From Phycisphaerales bacterium (GTDB lineage: Bacteria; Planctomycetota; Phycisphaerae; SM23-33; FEN-1343), in assembly GCA_003171335.1 (NCBI GenBank), contig PMYD01000055.1, forward strand, positions 1 to 59,210: a DNA stretch of 59,210 bases. The letters are read 5' to 3'. How positions within the stretch are numbered: the first letter of the stretch is position 1; the number at the start of each line of letters is the position of its first letter. Position numbers and translations under genes: made by a program. Shown here piece after piece: positions 19,163 through 26,598 of the stretch. The notes under the pieces were generated by a model, which saw only the letters and a program-made list of their open reading frames with translations, was not told the origin of the DNA and searched no databases.

Positions 19163-21385
19163 ATGGCCGACATCCGTTACGACTTTGTTGTCTTCAGCGA
19201 TGACTGGGGAAGGCACCCCTCCAGTTGTCAGCACCTCTTCGGGCACTTGGCCCGGCGGCACCGGGTGCTCTGGGTAAACACCATCGGCCTTCGCGCCCCT
19301 CGGGCCGATCGTTTTACGGTGCAGCGCGGACTGGAGAAGCTCGGCCAGTGGGCCCGGCCGCTGCGGCAGATTGACGAGAACTTCTGGGTGTACAGCCCCT
19401 GGATGCTTCCCGCCGCCGGCGGTTTGGCGGGCGCAGTCAATGCCAGGTTCGTATGCCTGTGTTTACAGCGGGTGCTGGCGCGATGCGGTCTAGAGCGGCC
19501 GGTGCTGTTTGCCTCGGTGCCGACGGCCGCGGATTATGTGGACAAGCTGCATGAGCAGGCGCTGGTGTATTACATTACCGACGACTACCGCCGCTGGCCC
19601 GGTGCTGATGCCCAGCACGTAGCCGCCCAGGATCGACTGTTGAGCGAGCGGGCCGATCTGCTGCTGCCGTGCGGGACGGCGCTGGCCCAGAACCGCCAGG
19701 CGCGCGGGCGTGTGGAACTGCTGCCCCATGCTGTCGACCTGGAGCATTTTGCCGCCGCCGATCTGGCCGCGGATGAGCCGGCGGATCTGGCGGCTATACC
19801 GCATCCGCGGCTGGGCTTTTTTGGCCTGATCTACGAGAAGATCGACCTGGGGCTTTTTGAGAAGCTGGCACGGTCTGATCCTAGGCGGCATTTGGTGCTA
19901 ATCGGGCCAATCAAAACGGATATCTCGGCGCTGGCCGCTCTACCCAACGTGCACGTGCTTGGCGCTAAGCCGTACGCGGAATTGCCGCGCTACCTGCACG
20001 GCCTGGATGTGCTGCTGCTGGCCTACGTGCTGGATGAGCAGACGCTCCGCAACGCGCCGCTGAAGATCCGCGAGTGCCTGGCCGTGGGCAAGCCCATCGT
20101 CGCCAAGGCCATCGCCGATCTGGAGCCGTACCGGGGCCTGATTCACCTGGCCAAAACAGATGAGGAATACCTGGTCGCCTGCGATGCGGCATGCTTGGGG
20201 GAAGAACCTGCCGACGTTGCCGCCATGCGCGCTGCCGTGGCCGGCCAGACCTGGGAAGCGCGGGCCCGCCAGGTGGAAGAGCTGCTCCATCAAGTGATGC
20301 CCCATGTGGCACAGTCGTCCTCGGCTGTGCCGGCCGAAAAAGACCGTCGAACTGTCCACTGCACAGCCGAGGGCGGCTGTGCCACACCCACTGCCGCCGC
20401 GTGGGATGCATATATCGCCGGCCACGCCGACGGCTGCATCTGGCATCGCTTCGCCTGGACGACCATCATGCGCGGCTGTTACGGCATGCGGTGCTGGAAT
20501 CTCACCGTCCAGCGCGGCGGCTGCATCGCGGGTATTTTGCCCCTGGCGCTGCAGAAGAGCCGGCTGTTCGGCCGGCACCTGGTGAGCCTGCCATGGCTGG
20601 ATTATTCCGGCATTCTTGCCGACGACGATGCGGCGGCGGCTGAACTGGTCGAATCCGGCAAGGCGCTGGCTCGTCGTCTGCGAGCCGACCTGACGCTCCG
20701 ACAGCGCGTCCCGTCGAACGCGATGGGCGGATCGATTCGCGCAGACAAGGTGGCGATGGTCCTGGAGCTGCCCCAGACCAGCCAAGATCTGTGGGCACAG
20801 CTTTCGGCCAAGGTTCGCAACCAGATTCGCAAGGCGCAGAAATCGCAGTTGACCGCACAATGGGCCGACACGTCGGCGTTGGGGGAGTTTTTCCACGTCT
20901 ACGCAACGAACATGCGAGATCTGGGTTCGCCGCCGCATTCCCGGGAGTTTTTCGCCGCCGTGCTGTGTGAGCTGGAGGATGTGGGGCGGCTGCTGATCAT
21001 TCGCCACGACGGCCAACCCGCCGCCGCCGCGATCGTGCTGGCAGATTCGCGCGGTTGGCAGGTGCCTTGGGCATCCAGCCTGCGGGCGTTCAACAGCGTG
21101 TGCCCCAACCACCTGATGTACTGGACGATCGTTGCCCAGGCGTGTGGGCGAGCACAACGCTTCTGCTTCGGCCGCAGCACGCGCGACAGCGGTACGTACA
21201 AGTTCAAGGCTCAATGGGGCGCACAGCCGGTGGAACTCACCTGGCAGACCTGGCCGCCGCGGCCGCAGGAAAATGCCAGCGGCCAGGAGGGCACGCTGGT
21301 CCGCGTGGCTCAGAAGGCGTGGCAGCAGTTGCCCGTACCGCTGGCGCGGCTGCTGGGGCCGCCGCTCATTCGGTGCGTGGGGTGA
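19163..21385 (+). CDS. Fusion of a GT-B glycosyltransferase and a FemAB-like acyltransferase
   Basis: Residues 1-380 form a glycosyltransferase-like part (WGRHPSSCQHLFGHLARRH at the start, YYITDDYRRWPG, LPHAVDLEHFAAAD, FFGLIYEKIDL, RECLAVGKPIVA). Residues 409-740 form a FemAB/GNAT domain of the XrtA-associated type (WLDYSGILADDDAAA, LSAKVRNQIRKAQKS, NMRDLGSPPHSREFF, FCFGRSTRDSGTYKFKAQWG). The two are normally separate proteins. The linker, residues 381-408, is encoded by an 82-bp palindromic repeat. The start is ATG 19163 with AGGGAG nearby. FemAB-type enzymes transfer aminoacyl or acyl groups, and the actual substrates here are unknown. Confidence 0.82.
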   Translation: MADIRYDFVVFSDDWGRHPSSCQHLFGHLARRHRVLWVNTIGLRAPRADRFTVQRGLEKLGQWARPLRQIDENFWVYSPWMLPAAGGLAGAVNARFVCLCLQRVLARCGLERPVLFASVPTAADYVDKLHEQALVYYITDDYRRWPGADAQHVAAQDRLLSERADLLLPCGTALAQNRQARGRVELLPHAVDLEHFAAADLAADEPADLAAIPHPRLGFFGLIYEKIDLGLFEKLARSDPRRHLVLIGPIKTDISALAALPNVHVLGAKPYAELPRYLHGLDVLLLAYVLDEQTLRNAPLKIRECLAVGKPIVAKAIADLEPYRGLIHLAKTDEEYLVACDAACLGEEPADVAAMRAAVAGQTWEARARQVEELLHQVMPHVAQSSSAVPAEKDRRTVHCTAEGGCATPTAAAWDAYIAGHADGCIWHRFAWTTIMRGCYGMRCWNLTVQRGGCIAGILPLALQKSRLFGRHLVSLPWLDYSGILADDDAAAAELVESGKALARRLRADLTLRQRVPSNAMGGSIRADKVAMVLELPQTSQDLWAQLSAKVRNQIRKAQKSQLTAQWADTSALGEFFHVYATNMRDLGSPPHSREFFAAVLCELEDVGRLLIIRHDGQPAAAAIVLADSRGWQVPWASSLRAFNSVCPNHLMYWTIVAQACGRAQRFCFGRSTRDSGTYKFKAQWGAQPVELTWQTWPPRPQENASGQEGTLVRVAQKAWQQLPVPLARLLGPPLIRCVG
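20305..20386. repeat. 82-bp palindromic element, copy 1 (inside the GT-FemAB gene)
   Basis: The ends are 10-bp inverted repeats (TGTGGCACAG and CTGTGCCACA). Internal inverted words CCTCGGCTGTGC and GCACAGCCGAGG strengthen the hairpin. A copy of exactly the same length lies at 36832-36913. Here it is read through as residues 381-408, in a different reading frame from the other copy, so it is a DNA element and not a protein domain. Confidence 0.8.
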
Positions 21386-21387
21386 GC

Positions 21388-22326
21388 ATGCACGAGCAGG
21401 TCCATTCCGAGCCCCGGCCGCCGGCCCGATCCGGCATCTGCCACATGCTCAGCTTCGACGTGGAGGAATACTTCCATGCCGAGGCCTTCCGCGATGTGAT
21501 CGGCCCGACGCGCTGGTCCGCCTGGCCCAGCCGGATCGAAGCCCAGATGGACGGCCTGCTGAGCCTGTTGAGCGAGGCGAACATCCGCGCGACGTTCTTC
21601 GTTCTGGGCGCCCTGGCCCGGCATCACGGCCGGCTGGTGCAGCGGATTGCGGCCGGCGGCCACGAAATCGCCTGCCACGGCGACAGTCACGAGATGATAG
21701 CCCGGCTGGGCGTTTCCGGTTTTCGCGACGACACGGCCGCGGCCAAGGCGCGCCTGGAGGACCTGGTGGGCCAGCGTGTCCTGGGGTACCGCGCCGCCAC
21801 CTTCGGATTGGTTCGTGCAACCGCCTGGGCCATCGATGTGCTGACCGAACTGGGATTCTGCTATGACTCGAGCATTCAACCGGTTTACCACGACCGCTAC
21901 GGGGTTCCCGACGCCCCCCCACACGCCCATTGGGCCATAGGGCCGGGCGGCTCACGAATCCTGGAGCTGCCGCCAATGACGCGCCGGCTGGCCGGTCGAA
22001 ACATCCCGCTGGGAGGTGGAGGGTACTTCCGCCTGCTGCCGGCCGTGTTTTTTGATCGGGCCTTGCGGGCCTTAGCCCGCCGCGGCCAAAGCGCCATGCT
22101 TTACTTGCACCCTTGGGAGTTCGACCCCGATCAGCCCGTCGTCCCCGCAGGCCGCCTTCGAAATTTCCGCCACCGCGTCAACCTGCGCCGCACCCCGGGC
22201 AAGCTTCGCGCGCTCCTGGCGGCGCATCAGTTTGGTCGCACATGCGACGTGGCGGCGGAATTGACCGCGCAGAATCTGCCCAGCTTCCAATATCTGGCCG
22301 TCGACGAGGTGGCAGCAGTCAGATAG
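21388..22326 (+). CDS. Polysaccharide deacetylase (NodB, XrtA-associated DUF3473 type)
   Basis: The 312-residue protein shows the NodB homology motifs: LSFDVEEYFHAEAF (first acidic motif), ATFFVLG, HEIACHGDSHE (metal-binding histidines), GYRAATFGL, and the late LHPWEFDPDQP. The DVEEYFH and HPWEFDP signatures mark the group linked with exosortase systems. ATG 21388 follows the fusion-gene stop by 2 nt; GTG 21382 is a possible overlapping start. It would remove N-acetyl groups from a hexosamine-containing glycan. It ends 8 bp from a convergent gene. Confidence 0.85.
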   Translation: MHEQVHSEPRPPARSGICHMLSFDVEEYFHAEAFRDVIGPTRWSAWPSRIEAQMDGLLSLLSEANIRATFFVLGALARHHGRLVQRIAAGGHEIACHGDSHEMIARLGVSGFRDDTAAAKARLEDLVGQRVLGYRAATFGLVRATAWAIDVLTELGFCYDSSIQPVYHDRYGVPDAPPHAHWAIGPGGSRILELPPMTRRLAGRNIPLGGGGYFRLLPAVFFDRALRALARRGQSAMLYLHPWEFDPDQPVVPAGRLRNFRHRVNLRRTPGKLRALLAAHQFGRTCDVAAELTAQNLPSFQYLAVDEVAAVR

Positions 22327-22334
22327 AGGTTCCT

Positions 22335-23186
22335 TTACGGCCGCTGCTGCTGGTTCACGGCTAGATCTCGGGCCAAGTCACGCAGAAAGAGCCGGCCGCG
22401 GCTGGCGCGCTTGAGCAGGGCGGCCTTGTCGGGTGAGCCGGCCACCTCGAGAATCATGCCGCCTGTAAAGGGAATGCGCGACAGCCGGGCCACCAGGTCG
22501 CGCCAATCGATCAGCCCTTCGCCGGGCAACAGGTGCTCATCGGATTGCCCGTGGTTGTCATTGATGTGCATCATCCACAGGTGACCCGAGAGCTTGTCGA
22601 CGACGGCGGGCAGGTCACCGGCCAGGTGCGCGTGGCCGGTGTCCAGGCAGATGCCCACGCCGCCCCAGGTCATCGCCCCCACCACCCACAACAGGTCGCG
22701 GATGGGCCCGGTGAACAGGTGCGGCAGCATGTTTTCCAGGGCCAGGCCCACGCCCAGTTGCCGGCATCGCTCCGACACCTCGTTGAGAACCTCCACCGCG
22801 CGGTGCCGCCGGGCGGACTCATCGGGCTCCTGAAAGTGGCGGTGCTCAGGCCCGGGGTGCAGCACGATGTAGCGCGCGTGGATCTGTGCGGCCGCCTGCA
22901 CGGCGACCATGAGCTGCTCGCGCGAGCGGCGGCGTACCTCGGCGTCGGGACTGGTGATGTCAATCCAATCGGCGAAAGGCGCGTGGAAAGAGTACGCCTC
23001 CATGCTCAGCTCGCGGATGCGCCGCCGCACGTGCTCGACGGCCTGCATGTCGTGGTAGTCCAGATGCAGGCGACTGGAGCACACTTCAACCATGTCGAAA
23101 CCGGCGTGCAGGATGGGCTCGAGGCACTCGCAAATCGGGACATCATAAAAAGCCCCGGTCGACATTCCGATGGGCCAGTCATACAT
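22335..23186 (-). CDS. Sugar phosphate isomerase/epimerase-like TIM barrel (AP_endonuc_2 fold)
   Basis: The 283-residue protein has the metal-site pattern of the xylose-isomerase-like/endonuclease IV superfamily: SFHAPF, VLHPGPEH, LENM, CLDTGHAHL, MMHINDNHGQSDEHLLPGEG (H, D, H residues) and ILEVAGS. The fold and divalent-metal site are clear. Whether it acts on sugars or DNA is not. ATG 23186 overlaps the stop of the upstream gene by 8 nt (ATGTATGA), so the two are translationally coupled. Confidence 0.8.
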   Translation of the reverse strand: MYDWPIGMSTGAFYDVPICECLEPILHAGFDMVEVCSSRLHLDYHDMQAVEHVRRRIRELSMEAYSFHAPFADWIDITSPDAEVRRRSREQLMVAVQAAAQIHARYIVLHPGPEHRHFQEPDESARRHRAVEVLNEVSERCRQLGVGLALENMLPHLFTGPIRDLLWVVGAMTWGGVGICLDTGHAHLAGDLPAVVDKLSGHLWMMHINDNHGQSDEHLLPGEGLIDWRDLVARLSRIPFTGGMILEVAGSPDKAALLKRASRGRLFLRDLARDLAVNQQQRP

Positions 23187-24546
23187 GGCTGGCCCTCCAC
23201 TCGCCCAGGCGGCGCCGCGCGGCCGCCAGGTGAGCCACGGCAGGGGGCGAGAAGCAGGCCAGCGTGCCCGGGTCATCGACCCCGAGCAGAAAGAGCCCGG
23301 CGAACAGCCGCGTGTAGAAGTCCGCGCGCGAGGTAGCATCGTGCTGGTACCAATATTCCAGCCAGCCGTGGTCGCGCTCGTACTTGGAGCGCAGGAGCCC
23401 GGCGATGTGTCGCGGGTGCCAGCCGGCCGTCAGCAGGTGGCCCACGACGTGGCGCATATAGCCCGGCTTGACCAGGGCATCGTTGGGGTGGCGCAGCGCG
23501 TTCGCTGCGCATGGGGGCAGCTCATCGAGTGCCACGACATCGTACGTGATGGGCCACTGGTCCGGCGGGTGCTGCGACTGCGAGTAAAACCAGGCGTGGA
23601 AATCCGCCAGCGGCGAACTGCGATAGGCCTCCGTCAGCGCTGCGGTGCCGGCGGCGCATTCGGGAATCGCCACGCTGGACCAGCGGGCAACTTCGGCCAT
23701 CAACGCCGGGTCCTGCATGGCAGTCAGGGCATCGGTTTCCGTCAGCCCGGCCGCCGGCACGGAGAAAGAGGGTATGGCCGATGGACCTTCCGCGGCCCAG
23801 CCGCGCTGCCGACCTTTGAGGTAGACACTGTAGGGCATGCGCACGGCGCGCGATATCAGAGCATCCCCATATTCGGAGATGTCGATGGCCACGATCTCGG
23901 GCGCGGTCTCCTCCACCGGTTCGACCGCAGTGGCGCGAATGGGCACGTCGCACGCGCCGGCGGCGTCGGCCATGAGGCGGTGCGTGATGAACTCCATCAC
24001 CATGCCCAGGCCGGAAAACGCCCGGCCCAACTCAAGGCCGACCCGCTCCTCGCACGGAGGCTGACGCCGGGAGTAGCGCGACACCAGCGATGAGGGCAGA
24101 CGGCCCAGTTCCGCCAGGCGGTCAAAGGCCGCACTGGCCCGTGCTACCTGCCACAGGAAATGGTGGCCCATGCCGCTATAGAGATGCAGCGGACGGATAC
24201 CGAAGCTCCGCAGCAACTGCACCGCCGCGCGCGCCACGGGGCGCTGCACCCCGTAGCCACGGTCGCGGTCGTGATAGCCGCGCGCGGGCTGGTTGAAGTT
24301 CACGTAGTCCAGGTCGAGGTGGGCAATGAGGCCGGCGCGGTCCCAGAGCGAGCGGCCGACATCCATGCCTTCCTCCAGGCAGCGCCACAGCTCGCCCACC
24401 GGCAGCGGATCAAACCGCGGCCCGGCCGCAGCGCCGGCCGTGATGAACATGGCCGTGGCCTCGGACAATTCGTGGCGGGCGCCCAGGAATTCGAGCATCC
24501 GCCGGCGCACCGCGATATCCCGGTAGTAATCGACAATGGGGTCCAT
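23179..24546 (-). CDS. Protein with archaeo-eukaryotic-primase-like motifs
   Basis: The 455-residue protein carries three motifs in the order seen in AEP primases and PrimPols: HLDLDYV (hDhD, Asp78 and Asp80), LYSGMGHHFLW (S-G-x-G-x-H, residues 123-133), and AIDISEYGD followed by RMPYSVYLK (residues 221-244). The last resembles the AEP acidic residue plus the R-x-P-x-S-x-H/Y-x-K nucleotide-binding segment. The C-terminal 150 residues are helical with a GWHPRHIAGLL segment, and I see no helicase or zinc finger. ATG 24546 follows GGGGGAAG by about 4 nt; GTG 24558 is the alternative. Assignment rests on motifs read by eye. Confidence 0.5.
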   Translation of the reverse strand: MDPIVDYYRDIAVRRRMLEFLGARHELSEATAMFITAGAAAGPRFDPLPVGELWRCLEEGMDVGRSLWDRAGLIAHLDLDYVNFNQPARGYHDRDRGYGVQRPVARAAVQLLRSFGIRPLHLYSGMGHHFLWQVARASAAFDRLAELGRLPSSLVSRYSRRQPPCEERVGLELGRAFSGLGMVMEFITHRLMADAAGACDVPIRATAVEPVEETAPEIVAIDISEYGDALISRAVRMPYSVYLKGRQRGWAAEGPSAIPSFSVPAAGLTETDALTAMQDPALMAEVARWSSVAIPECAAGTAALTEAYRSSPLADFHAWFYSQSQHPPDQWPITYDVVALDELPPCAANALRHPNDALVKPGYMRHVVGHLLTAGWHPRHIAGLLRSKYERDHGWLEYWYQHDATSRADFYTRLFAGLFLLGVDDPGTLACFSPPAVAHLAAARRRLGEWRASHV

Positions 24547-24597: not shown

Positions 24598-26598
24598 TTA
24601 TCGTGCCCCGCCCGCCGGCGGCGCGGGGGGCGCAGGGGGGCGCAGGTCGGTGAGGCGCTGGCGGGCCAGTTGCTCGATGTCGCGCTGGCCGGTCTGGCGT
24701 GCCAATTCGGCGGCCAGGGCCAGTTCGCCCGCGCCGGCGTCGGCCTGGCCGGCCCCGACCAACGCGGCCCCCAGGCCCAGGTGGCCCAGGGCGTAGTCGG
24801 GATAAAGCTGCACGGCGCGCCGACAGGCGGCAATCGCCTCCTCCCAGCGGCGCTGGTCGATCAGCGCCAAACCGAGATTGCAGTGCGCCTCGTACCACTC
24901 GCCGTTGAGTGCGATGGATCGGTTGAATTCGACAATGGCCTCGTCCAGCCGGTTCTGCCGCCGCAGCAGCGAGCCCAGACCCGAATGCCAGCGGGCATTT
25001 TCGGGATTCTGCTGGACGGCCCGCCGGGCGTGCTCGATGGCGGCATCAATGTCGCCCGGCTTATCGCGGAAGGAGAGAGTCAGGGCGAGGTTGTAGTTGA
25101 GGCGGCTTTGACTGCGATGAGTCGGCTCGCGCTCCTGGACGGCGGCGCGGTAGCACTCGATGGCCTCATCGTATTTGCCTGCCCGCGACAGCGCGTTGGC
25201 CAGGTCCTCGCGGACGTAGGTGGCGTGCGGCGCCAAGGACAGCATGTGCCGGTAGAGCGTCTCGGTGTCGCGCCACCAGGAGAGATATTGGCGAGTCACG
25301 GCCATTTCTCCGGCAGCCAGGCCGGCGACCACGGCGATTATCGCCAGGCGCCCAGGCCAGGGCCGCTGCCCGCCGCGGCGCCACAGCCAGGCGGCCAGGG
25401 CCGCCAGCGGGGCCAGGAAGCCGATCAGCGGCAGGTACGCGAACTTGTTGCAGGCCGGCACGTTATTAAAACCCACGATGCCCATGGTGGGCGACAAGAG
25501 CACGAAGAAGATGCCAAAGCCGACGGCCGCCGCGCGCGTCCGACGCCACGAGAACCACAACGCCAGCGCCAAGATCAACGTGCCCAGGATGCCCGCCAGC
25601 ACGATCGGGTTGGTCAGGTCCATGGGATCGGGGAACGGGTAGTGGGCCGTCAAGCCCGCCGGATAGAGGATCTTCAGCGGGTAGAACACCACATTGTAAA
25701 ACACCGTCAACACCTTGGCGGCGGTATTCTGATCGGGCGTGAAAAGGTTGGCGGTGTTCTTCTGCGAGAAAAAGGTGACGTAACATGAGATGAGAACGAT
25801 GGGGACAAGGGGAATCTTCTCCACCGCCGCGCGGGCCGAAAAACGCCGCAAGGGCCAGATATCCAGCAGCAGCATCGCCGCCGGCAGCATCACCGCCGTG
25901 GGCTTGGCCAGCAGCGCCACGAGGTACAGGACCAGCGAAGCCAGCAGCCAGGGGGAGAAAACCGGACCAGGCAACGGCCTTTGGGCCGAAGCGGCAGAAA
26001 CGGAAGACTTGGTGGCCGTGGCCTGGCCGTGGCGCACATAGCATACCAGCGATGCCAGCGCGAAAAACGTTGCCAACGGCGTCTTGCGCTCACTGATCCA
26101 GGCGACCACATCGACTGACATCGGATGTACGGCAAACAGCAGGCCCACAAGCCCTGCAGCCGGCGCGCTACCGAAGAGCACGTACAACAACAGGACCACC
26201 AGCGCCGAATTGGCGGCGTGGAGGCCCATGCTGACGGCATGGAAGATGCGCGGGTCGTTCTCACGGCCACCCATGCGGTAGTCCAGCATCAGCGAGACCA
26301 TCGAAAGCGGCTGGTAGTAGCCGCGCACTGTGCTGGGACGCATCACCTCGGCGAAGAATCGTTCCGCGGCCTCCAGGCTGGGGTTCTTCACCAGCATGTT
26401 GTCGCCCAGATACTGATTGTCGTCGAAGCACAGCGCCTTGGCCTTATAGGCTGGCTGGTGCGCCACCATGGCCGCCACCGCGACCAGCATAGCCGCCAGG
26501 GTGGCCGGCCAGATGCGGTGACGCGGGCCCTGAGTCAAGGCGGCGGTCGTGCGATCCTTGTGCGGCTTGGGATGACTCTGGCGACGCACGCGTTTCAT
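24598..26598 (-). CDS. Polytopic membrane protein with C-terminal TPR repeats
   Basis: The 666-residue protein has about 12 membrane segments in residues 30-430. One conserved part (YYQPLSMVSLMLDYRMGG, HAANSALVVLLLYVLFG, FAVHPMSVDVVAWISERK) resembles the TMTC/DUF1736-type membrane mannosyltransferase-like family. Residues 450-640 form about five tetratricopeptide repeats (for example YDEAIECYRAAVQ and LDEAIVEFNRSIALNG). The tail is Pro/Ala-rich. Proteins of this plan are common in planctomycetes and may glycosylate exported proteins, but the activity here is inferred. ATG 26598 begins with a basic stretch. Confidence 0.78.
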   Translation of the reverse strand: MKRVRRQSHPKPHKDRTTAALTQGPRHRIWPATLAAMLVAVAAMVAHQPAYKAKALCFDDNQYLGDNMLVKNPSLEAAERFFAEVMRPSTVRGYYQPLSMVSLMLDYRMGGRENDPRIFHAVSMGLHAANSALVVLLLYVLFGSAPAAGLVGLLFAVHPMSVDVVAWISERKTPLATFFALASLVCYVRHGQATATKSSVSAASAQRPLPGPVFSPWLLASLVLYLVALLAKPTAVMLPAAMLLLDIWPLRRFSARAAVEKIPLVPIVLISCYVTFFSQKNTANLFTPDQNTAAKVLTVFYNVVFYPLKILYPAGLTAHYPFPDPMDLTNPIVLAGILGTLILALALWFSWRRTRAAAVGFGIFFVLLSPTMGIVGFNNVPACNKFAYLPLIGFLAPLAALAAWLWRRGGQRPWPGRLAIIAVVAGLAAGEMAVTRQYLSWWRDTETLYRHMLSLAPHATYVREDLANALSRAGKYDEAIECYRAAVQEREPTHRSQSRLNYNLALTLSFRDKPGDIDAAIEHARRAVQQNPENARWHSGLGSLLRRQNRLDEAIVEFNRSIALNGEWYEAHCNLGLALIDQRRWEEAIAACRRAVQLYPDYALGHLGLGAALVGAGQADAGAGELALAAELARQTGQRDIEQLARQRLTDLRPPAPPAPPAGGAR

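Follow-up and report, generated by a model that had tools for sequence, protein, structure and literature searches.

Bacteria prime with DnaG (PMC5862659), and a chromosomal bacterial gene, not visibly mobile, for an archaeal-primase-like enzyme with a large-subunit domain is unexpected. Such a gene lies in the window, by which we mean the whole 59,210-nucleotide stretch of Phycisphaerales DNA analyzed here, where it overlaps a gene for a barrel protein with the metal-ligand positions of endonuclease IV. What does the enzyme do, and is its neighbor part of the answer? The upstream frame (gene A) starts with the ATG at 24546 and the downstream frame (gene B) with the ATG at 23186, their stops ending at 23179 and 22335, respectively (Table 1). 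A first-pass annotation of this DNA had placed the two genes in exactly this range, 22335-24546, and the overlap of 8 nt that it described was borne out. A and B are probably made together through coupled translation.

Table 1. Features of the gene A-gene B locus, with positions in the window
Feature	Position	Strand	Basis
Gene A, AEP primase-polymerase (predicted), single chain with PriL-like C-terminal region, 455 aa	23179..24546	-	ORF, AEP fold, motif conservation, profile match to fused archaeal primases
Catalytic AEP part of A, roughly residues 1-300 (boundary not exact)	23647..24546	-	Structure-alignment rows spanning model residues 1-310
Motif I codons, D78-L-D80 (D-x-E in most relatives)	24307..24315	-	Alignment
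Motif II codons, S124-G-M-G-H-H129	24160..24177	-	Alignment
Motif III and following R/K stretch, I221-D222 ... R233, R236-MPYSVYL-K244	23815..23886	-	Alignment
PriL-CTD-like region of A, about residues 301-455, two family cysteines left (C346, C431)	23182..23646	-	hhalign of C-termini, weak PF04104 match, cysteines
Overlap of A stop and B start, 8 nt	23179..23186	-	ORF coordinates
Gene B, AP_endonuc_2 (xylose-isomerase-like) TIM barrel, 283 aa	22335..23186	-	PF01261, model, ligand alignment

Gene A had been read as an AEP primase-polymerase from the motifs DLD, SGMGHH, ID and RMPYSVYLK, and all of these were present, as D78/D80, S124 to H129, D222 and R236 to K244. In the alignment of 32 A proteins, among them the window copy, D78, G127, D222, R233 and K244 were invariant, H129 was conserved in 31, and position 80 was Glu in 29 and Asp in three, a conservation far beyond chance. 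Motif I (D-x-D/E), motif II (sGxGxH) and the acidic residue of motif III were thus all found in the family. The structural model (pLDDT 89.4, pTM 0.92) supported the reading, as it contained the RRM-like AEP catalytic fold; a structure lacking this core, which the first-pass annotation had named as a refutation, was thus not what was found. The best fold matches were Prim-PolC, LigD polymerase domains, eukaryotic and archaeal primase catalytic subunits and CRISPR Prim-Pol, with Z scores of 17.6 for mycobacterial Prim-PolC (252 residues, 3.2 A), 16-17 for the LigD domains and about 12.5 for PriS. The motif residues sat on predicted strands 72-83, 127-135 and 217-222, as an AEP core would have. 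Gene A is therefore predicted to encode an AEP primase-polymerase.

Single-sequence searches with A detected no family in Pfam or NCBIfam up to E 1 and none in PHROGs or PADLOC up to E 5, so that these libraries alone would miss it. The LigD_Prim-Pol family of Pfam was matched by one of the 32 members (E 0.25). The 32-row profile had no match in the PDB, and five PDB matches obtained by sequence, the best being a designed ankyrin (E 0.0054), were taken as chance. In a viral fold search, A gave weak matches to phage replication proteins, which were left aside.

The first-pass annotation had kept as a fallback that A and B are incidental neighbors with unrelated roles, and compact genomes can indeed give overlaps. 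The survey of relatives contradicted this explanation, to which we give almost no credence. Of the 38 distinct loci, 35 had A and B side by side, and these came from one archaeon and at least five bacterial phyla, with the named strains Roseiconus nitratireducens JC645 and Verrucomicrobium sp. BvORR106 among the carriers; the two frames overlapped in 26 of the 31 loci measured, and the gene order was swapped in two loci. The trees of A and B, built from the 31 loci with both genes whole and excluding two tandem archaeal loci, were congruent, sharing 12 of 28 splits (at most 3 in 1000 relabelings). The co-occurrence survey that the annotation had proposed agreed with these results. Gene A was present in five of 397 genomes of the class, a patchy distribution that leaves aside a weak match in G321 (E 1.2e-4), rejected because inspection by eye suggested histidinol dehydrogenase for its frame. 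Gene B scored above 200 bits in exactly these five genomes, the next genome reaching 148 bits, a threshold that is no clean orthology test because the B alignment itself includes the five and a genuine though divergent archaeal partner, that of L095, scored only 91.5 bits. Most likely, A and B form one functional unit. No description of the pair was found in open-licence papers, a coverage outside which the 2005 AEP survey falls.

The loci came from a scan of genome contigs, in which one A sequence retrieved no loci and a three-row alignment retrieved 34. Loci L001, L002 and L004-L010 were repeats of others (some presumed identical), L011/L097 was a false match, and L045 was cut by a contig end. 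Gene A was broken or shortened in L040, L041 and L044, each with an intact B. L040, L041, L042, L044 and L045, with A broken or incomplete, were excluded from alignment A3, L040 from A4, and L063 (wrong frame) and L070 from A5. L041, L043 and L045 did not enter the overlap count, nor did the archaeal or swapped-order loci; for L040 and L044 the count relied on the final piece of A alone.

The window neighbors of A and B were genes related to polysaccharides, pili and radical-SAM enzymes; a part in exosortase or polysaccharide functions was rejected, as no such gene was among the families recurring in relatives. One member of the window's family, G002, has a family-4 uracil-DNA glycosylase gene next to A and divergent from it, a neighbor found in this genome only. 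By raw count, Hsp20, CBS or Usp genes lay near 15 of the 35 sources examined, and seven of the nine Hsp20 loci were from Verrucomicrobia. These clusters were named by eye, and Pfam confirmed Usp in five and Hsp20 in five scanned proteins. The neighbor scan chose long ORFs greedily, which misses genes under long spurious ORFs such as the glycosylase beside A in G002, and 141 of the 220 chosen ORFs were scanned; the families listed were the 25 + 25 commonest of 97 and 73 found. Among these commonest families there was no ATP-dependent ligase, and one neighbor was an NAD-ligase.

The pair might also belong to a mobile element or to defense, with the AEP serving as the replication primase of an integrated element or as part of an anti-phage system. 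Bacterial PrimPol-PV1 AEPs are, as described in PMC5862659, almost always located in mobile elements, many of them with helicases, and the occurrence of the pair in five of 397 genomes is patchy. The kinds of neighbors in the window argue against such an origin, as do the 25 + 25 commonest neighbor families, which included no integrase or phage family. A had no match in phage or plasmid records, in IMG/VR with a single-sequence query, or in PHROGs; a defense system was rejected as PADLOC gave no match. We regard either explanation as very unlikely.

A PriL-like C-terminal domain, archaeal relatives and the swapped gene order all lay beyond the view of the first-pass annotation. The full A profile matched the fused PriS-PriL primases of nanoarchaea (hhalign; prob 93.2, E 3e-7, 331 columns), and the similarity spanned both domains: the N-terminal parts alone gave E 2.1e-4 and the C-terminal parts alone E 1.4e-4, the best of 20 column shuffles of the C-termini giving 0.017. 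When the archaeal side was limited to 10 rows, E ranged from 8e-8 to 0.0017 over five draws. The match of LigD-pol profiles to the A profile was confined to around motif II, with E values of 0.0044 to 0.0081 for ten domains; as LigD-pol also matched the archaeal primase profile (E 2.1e-6), an N-terminal match of A alone would not single out PriS. The PriL-like assignment rests on this profile comparison and not on PF04104 (PriL), which was weakly matched by two of the 32 A members (best E 0.01; relative L033 has such a weak match) and by none of ten A C-terminal fragments searched alone.

Like the fused PriS-PriL of cluster-2 DPANN archaea, A is a single chain of similar length (archaeal frames mostly 420-590 aa) with the same domain order, FPPC/LPPC and C-terminal cysteines. 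It is nevertheless a distinct gene, as G397 carries both kinds, a PriL-type primase on contig C1 and, on C10, two genes of A type, and bacterial A differs in being patchy and paired with B. PolpTN2 and PrimPol-PV1 likewise combine an AEP with a PriL-related C-terminal domain, with four cysteines conserved in PolpTN2 (PMC3973330), whereas A is paired with a TIM barrel and was seen, as far as tested, with no mobile element.

The PriL-like region could mean that A is a true primase restarting synthesis past lesions, with B trimming or removing the primer or the lesion end. The A profile fitted fused PriS-PriL better than the ten LigD-pol domains. The window copy has two of the four family cysteines, and the set of four for a 4Fe-4S cluster was not found in it. 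According to PMC5700102, primases can begin strands with the help of PriL-CTD or of PriX, which takes its place, and the Fe-S cluster is dispensable for this in Sulfolobus, so that an Fe-S-less A such as the window copy could still prime. Conversely, the structure put gap-filling AEPs above PriS, no helicase or replication family recurred among the 25 + 25 commonest neighbor families, and repriming would leave the need for an endonuclease-IV-like partner unexplained. We consider such a role rather unlikely.

Gene B matched PF01261 (E 1.3e-39) and its model was of high confidence (pLDDT 93.7). The metal site of the endonuclease IV/xylose isomerase superfamily that had been ascribed to it was borne out at the level of ligand positions, since H68, H110, E151, D182, H185, H207, D216, H218 and E247 aligned with all nine metal ligands of the genome's own Nfo, which we take to be those of the three-metal site of E. 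coli endonuclease IV. All nine positions were retained in 32 of the 33 aligned B proteins, and the swapped-order B proteins lacked two of them. The overall fold of B, in contrast, was nearer to epimerases. Its closest PDB relative was MJ1311 (3wqo), a D-tagatose 3-epimerase-like protein, both by fold (Z 33.4, 1.8 A over 265 residues) and by profile (E 3.2e-32), with 25% identity to B; tagatose/psicose (sugar 3-) epimerases followed at Z 29-31, and endonuclease IV was absent among the 50 fold matches listed. The MJ1311 structure paper reportedly describes nine ligands and no DNA groove, and we know of neither a function nor an AEP partner for this protein. Tagatose/psicose epimerases use one metal with four ligands. 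The NCBIfam scores of B were all below their cut-offs, at 37.5 bits for the endonuclease IV family TIGR00587 (nfo; cut-off 129.65), 30.7 for PsicseEpim (300) and, as the two best NCBIfam scores, 56.2 for fructoselysine 3-epimerase (305) and 49.3 for CbiR (105). The genome also encodes a LigD polymerase domain and, apart from B, a canonical endonuclease IV (269.9 bits). An abasic-site nuclease, as the annotation had suggested, is a candidate reading of B.

CbiR, a member of the superfamily of B, is a metal-dependent cobamide phosphodiesterase, and the superfamily can thus cut a small-molecule phosphodiester (PMC7733943). B might accordingly be an epimerase or phosphodiesterase acting on a sugar or nucleotide, with A making or using an unusual nucleotide or nucleic acid and DNA repair playing no part. 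Besides the fold of B and its leading sub-cut-off scores, the two swapped-order B proteins favor this possibility, as their sole match at E up to 0.001 was CbiR, again below its cut-off. We consider it unlikely, since B retains five endonuclease-IV ligand positions beyond the four of the epimerases in 32 of 33 proteins, and no sugar-metabolism family among the commonest listed exceeded two of the 141 scanned neighbors (transketolase, 2).

For the A-B pair we tentatively favor a DNA end-processing and gap-filling module, with repriming as an alternative to the filling step. B would act as a metal-dependent phosphodiesterase of endonuclease IV type, opening or cleaning damaged DNA ends such as abasic sites and blocked 3' ends. 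The polymerase of A would bind the resulting short gap and fill it, as mycobacterial Prim-PolC does, and a host ligase would seal the strand. Either the template or the product's 5' end would be held by the PriL-like region, which may in addition enable A to begin strands unaided. We infer the action of B on DNA, the A-B contact, the order of the steps and the setting in stress repair.

Mycobacteria offer a close parallel. BER enzymes are found there in association with the LigC/Prim-PolC complex, and when the excision-repair pathway was rebuilt, no other end-processing enzyme helped as much as endonuclease IV (PMC5663958), a combination resembling that of A with its endonuclease-IV-like barrel. 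As described there, Prim-PolC itself bound LigC1 and the contacts of EndoIV were reported for LigC, so that a direct AEP-EndoIV contact is without precedent in that system. Prim-PolC and LigD-pol are also the top structural matches of A (Z 16-17.6); A differs from both in the extra PriL-like region and in a partner gene that encodes a barrel and not a ligase. It differs from LigD further in the Arg of 'RxPxSxYxK', which we place at the flange Arg described as absent from LigD (PMC5862659).

For the end-processing and gap-filling reading we counted the top folds of A, which are gap-filling repair AEPs, the endonuclease-IV-using Prim-PolC pathway, the conserved ligands of B, the adjacency, overlap, co-occurrence and congruent trees of the two genes, the uracil-DNA glycosylase in G002, and the Hsp20, CBS and Usp neighbors. 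Against it we counted the fold of B nearest MJ1311 and sugar 3-epimerases, the CbiR precedent, the missing precedent for AEP-EndoIV contact, the two ligands lost in swapped-order B, the restriction of the glycosylase to one genome, the canonical endonuclease IV and LigD polymerase domain already encoded in the genome, the Verrucomicrobia-heavy Hsp20 loci, the unclean 200-bit threshold, and the broken A genes of L040, L041 and L044.

The pair points to an undescribed two-part tool of DNA upkeep with a predicted chemistry. It is possible, though doubtful, that it represents a third cellular AEP repair machine beside LigD-Ku and Prim-PolC-LigC. Such a machine would descend from PriS/PriL-CTD, would almost always have an endonuclease-IV-like end-processing partner, and would be found in Planctomycetota, Verrucomicrobiota, Fibrobacterota and relatives, Desulfobacterota, Chloroflexota and nanoarchaea, with the Fe-S cluster lost whole several times. 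The fixed partner B gives A a testable function, and repair of abasic sites or gaps by the pair, if true, would make it a compact two-gene route of excision repair. Among the 32 aligned A proteins, 18, such as that of L024, had all four C-terminal cysteines, two had three and 11, such as that of L028, had none; with this mostly all-or-none pattern, the role of the primase Fe-S cluster is testable on natural enzymes with and without it.

The primase-polymerase-like gene A and its TIM-barrel (PF01261) partner B overlap by 8 nt in the window, in agreement with the first-pass annotation. The window lies within contig C162 of a 4.2-Mb assembly (90.9% complete), and the genome also encodes a LigD polymerase domain. 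The neighbours of the pair code for glycosyltransferases, an XrtA-type polysaccharide deacetylase, a TPR protein, a radical-SAM/HemN-type protein and PilM. The TPR gene and A may be on a common transcript.

Coordinates of the gene pair and its flanking genes in the window
Feature	Position	Strand	Size	Remark
Gene A	24546-23179	-	455 aa ORF	ATG at 24546, stop ending at 23179
Gene B	23186-22335	-	283 aa ORF	ATG at 23186, stop ending at 22335
TPR protein	24598-26598	-	666 aa	end 51 nt upstream of A, same strand
XrtA/PEP-CTERM-type polysaccharide deacetylase	21055-22326	+		TIGR03006 above cut-off; convergent with the pair

When window A was searched against 60 nearby genomes, it matched, besides its own copy, two relatives, with 50% identity in G002 and 26% in G053. 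A barrel homologous to B adjoined A in both, located in G053 upstream of A, opposite to the downstream B of the window. The search of genome contigs with a three-row A profile provided 34 loci, named as Planctomycetota (the named loci closest to the window copy), Verrucomicrobia, Fibrobacter, Chitinivibrionales/Chitinispirillaceae, Desulfobacterales/Desulfobulbaceae, Chloroflexi, Hydrogenedentota and one Pacearchaeota archaeon. B adjoined A in 32 of them; the exceptions were L045, cut by its contig end, and the archaeal L043, in which two tandem A-type genes were accompanied by no match to B. In the archaeal phylum of L043, which we take to be the nanoarchaea, A was present in 3 of 194 genomes: L043 itself, L096, again with tandem A-type genes and no B match, and L095, with A and B paired in swapped order (B profile E 1.1e-26). 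The tandem genes (L043:4238-7062 and L096:4686-7520) displayed AEP-like motifs by eye, and could represent a two-subunit form. When the window and G053 were included, adjacency was found in 35 of 38 distinct loci.

Overlap of the two genes was found in 26 of 31 measured loci, and in 25 of these 26 its length was 4, 8 or 59 nt. Where it is 59 nt, the start of B encodes the tail of A in another frame (checked in L018); this overlap, approximately the last 18-19 codons of A, was observed in L014, L015, L016, L017, L018, L020, L021, L025, L037 and L042, from several phyla. The barrel-first pairs of a bacterium (G053, L003:578-2745) and an archaeon (G466, L095:8266-10343) overlap by 4 nt. L040, L041 and L044 had an intact B with a frame-broken or shortened A, which may reflect decay or assembly error.

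The A and B trees of 31 loci had 12 of 28 splits in common, compared with a maximum of 3 in 1000 relabelings, and the patristic distances correlated at 0.97. The swapped-order pairs, bacterial G053 and archaeal L095, clustered together in both trees. The co-occurrence survey that had been proposed covered 397 genomes of the class, and A passed the threshold (E 0.001) in six. One match was false, as the sequence reads as hisD, and the other five genomes (G000, G002, G053, G195 and G345) fall into four families. The B profile exceeded 200 bits in exactly these five, the next genome reaching 148 bits; as the B alignment includes rows from the same five genomes, six candidates were scored per genome and the archaeal partner in L095 reached 91.5 bits, diverged B genes could escape. 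The adjacency, the swapped order, the congruent trees and the co-occurrence argue against the incidental pairing that the first-pass annotation had allowed for.

The AEP assignment of A was borne out by structure prediction. The AlphaFold2 model built from 32 sequences (pLDDT 89.4, pTM 0.92) gave the gap-filling repair AEPs LigD-pol (E 5.7e-4) and Prim-PolC (8.8e-4) as top Foldseek matches, and VIA-align Z scores were 17.6 for Prim-PolC, 16-17 for LigD-pol, and approximately 12-12.7 for PriS, Pri1 and CRISPR Prim-Pol. D78, G127, D222, R233 and K244 were invariant in the 32 aligned sequences, and H129 and R236 were each kept in 31. Judged from the modelled fold, A is an AEP. Its stretch R-x-P-x-S-x-Y-x-K resembles R-x-P-Y-S-x-H-E-K of archaeal primases. 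Motif IV is described in PMC5862659 as an Arg plus a partner position six residues on, His in archaeal PriS; by this spacing, R236 and residue 242, mostly Tyr, would be assigned to it.

Profile comparison indicated that A carries a PriL-like C-terminal end. The profile of A aligned with that of 29 fused PriS-PriL primases from the phylum of L043 over 331 columns (probability 93.2, E 3e-7). The N-terminal parts gave E 2.1e-4 and the C-terminal parts 1.4e-4 (best of 20 column shuffles, 0.017), compared with 0.028 and 0.47 for crossed halves and 0.15 for the B profile as controls. With the archaeal set reduced to 10 rows, five draws ranged from 8e-8 to 0.0017, so alignment depth matters. Ten LigD-pol domains matched A at E 0.0044 to 0.0081 and the archaeal primases at 2.1e-6. 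PF04104 (PriL) matched 2 of the 32 A members (best E 0.01; residues 304-404 in L033) and none of ten isolated A C-termini. Known examples of fused primases are those of cluster-2 DPANN archaea (PMC7414124) and PolpTN2 (PMC3973330).

A has four cysteine positions, LPPC and three close to the C-terminus. Four cysteines were present in 18 of 32 proteins, three in 2, two in the window copy and none in 11, and no protein kept any of the others without the first. This mostly all-or-none pattern would fit loss of an entire bound cluster; with proteins that have fewer than four cysteines scored as lost, the 31-row tree requires at least 7 changes of the four-cysteine state. As Sulfolobus primers were made without the Fe-S domain (PMC5700102), window A, by analogy, need not be dead.

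For B (model pLDDT 93.7), MJ1311 was the best match in both profile (E 3.2e-32; best endonuclease IV, 5.7e-14) and fold searches (Z 33.4), followed in the latter by tagatose and psicose epimerases. The annotated endonuclease IV/xylose isomerase metal site was recovered: in alignment with the genome's own endonuclease IV, Nfo (269.9 bits to TIGR00587), all nine ligand positions were present, and 32 of 33 aligned B proteins kept them all. L003 B, and L095 B outside this set, lacked two of the ligands, Asp at 216 and His at 218. B is thus predicted to hold an endonuclease-IV-type metal site in an epimerase-like shell, compatible with more than one substrate. A small-molecule role of B would agree with the epimerase matches, and the Nfo ligand positions may point to DNA.

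We found no description of the A-B pair in open-licence literature, and the first-pass annotation knew of none; the 2005 AEP survey is outside that scope, so an earlier mention is possible. The parts are of known kinds; what looks new is that they are combined and that the combination is conserved. LigC and Prim-PolC of mycobacteria associate with BER enzymes, and of the end-processing enzymes in the rebuilt reaction, endonuclease IV helped most. Prim-PolC was seen to bind LigC1, with EndoIV binding by Prim-PolC not among the contacts reported in the excerpted text (PMC5663958). By analogy, we infer that B would open or clean a DNA end and A would fill the resulting gap. One rival, repriming by the pair, would suit the PriL-like end of A, and the closest fold matches of A are the gap-filling enzymes; the other rival is the small-molecule role of B.

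A family-4 uracil-DNA glycosylase gene (L002:2919-3479; 167.7 bits, cut-off 125.3) is divergent from A in G002, the window's nearest relative in the class search; none was found among ORFs in the flanking sequence of the other loci. Hsp20 genes were near 9 of 35 sources: in seven Verrucomicrobia they lay upstream of A, and in two Planctomycetota downstream of B. Genes for CBS proteins were near 4 sources and those for universal stress proteins near 3; in all, such genes were near 15 of 35, as raw counts. Among the commonest Pfam families listed for 141 neighbours were Usp (5), Hsp20 (5), Lon C-terminal (2), CBS (2) and cold-shock (2).
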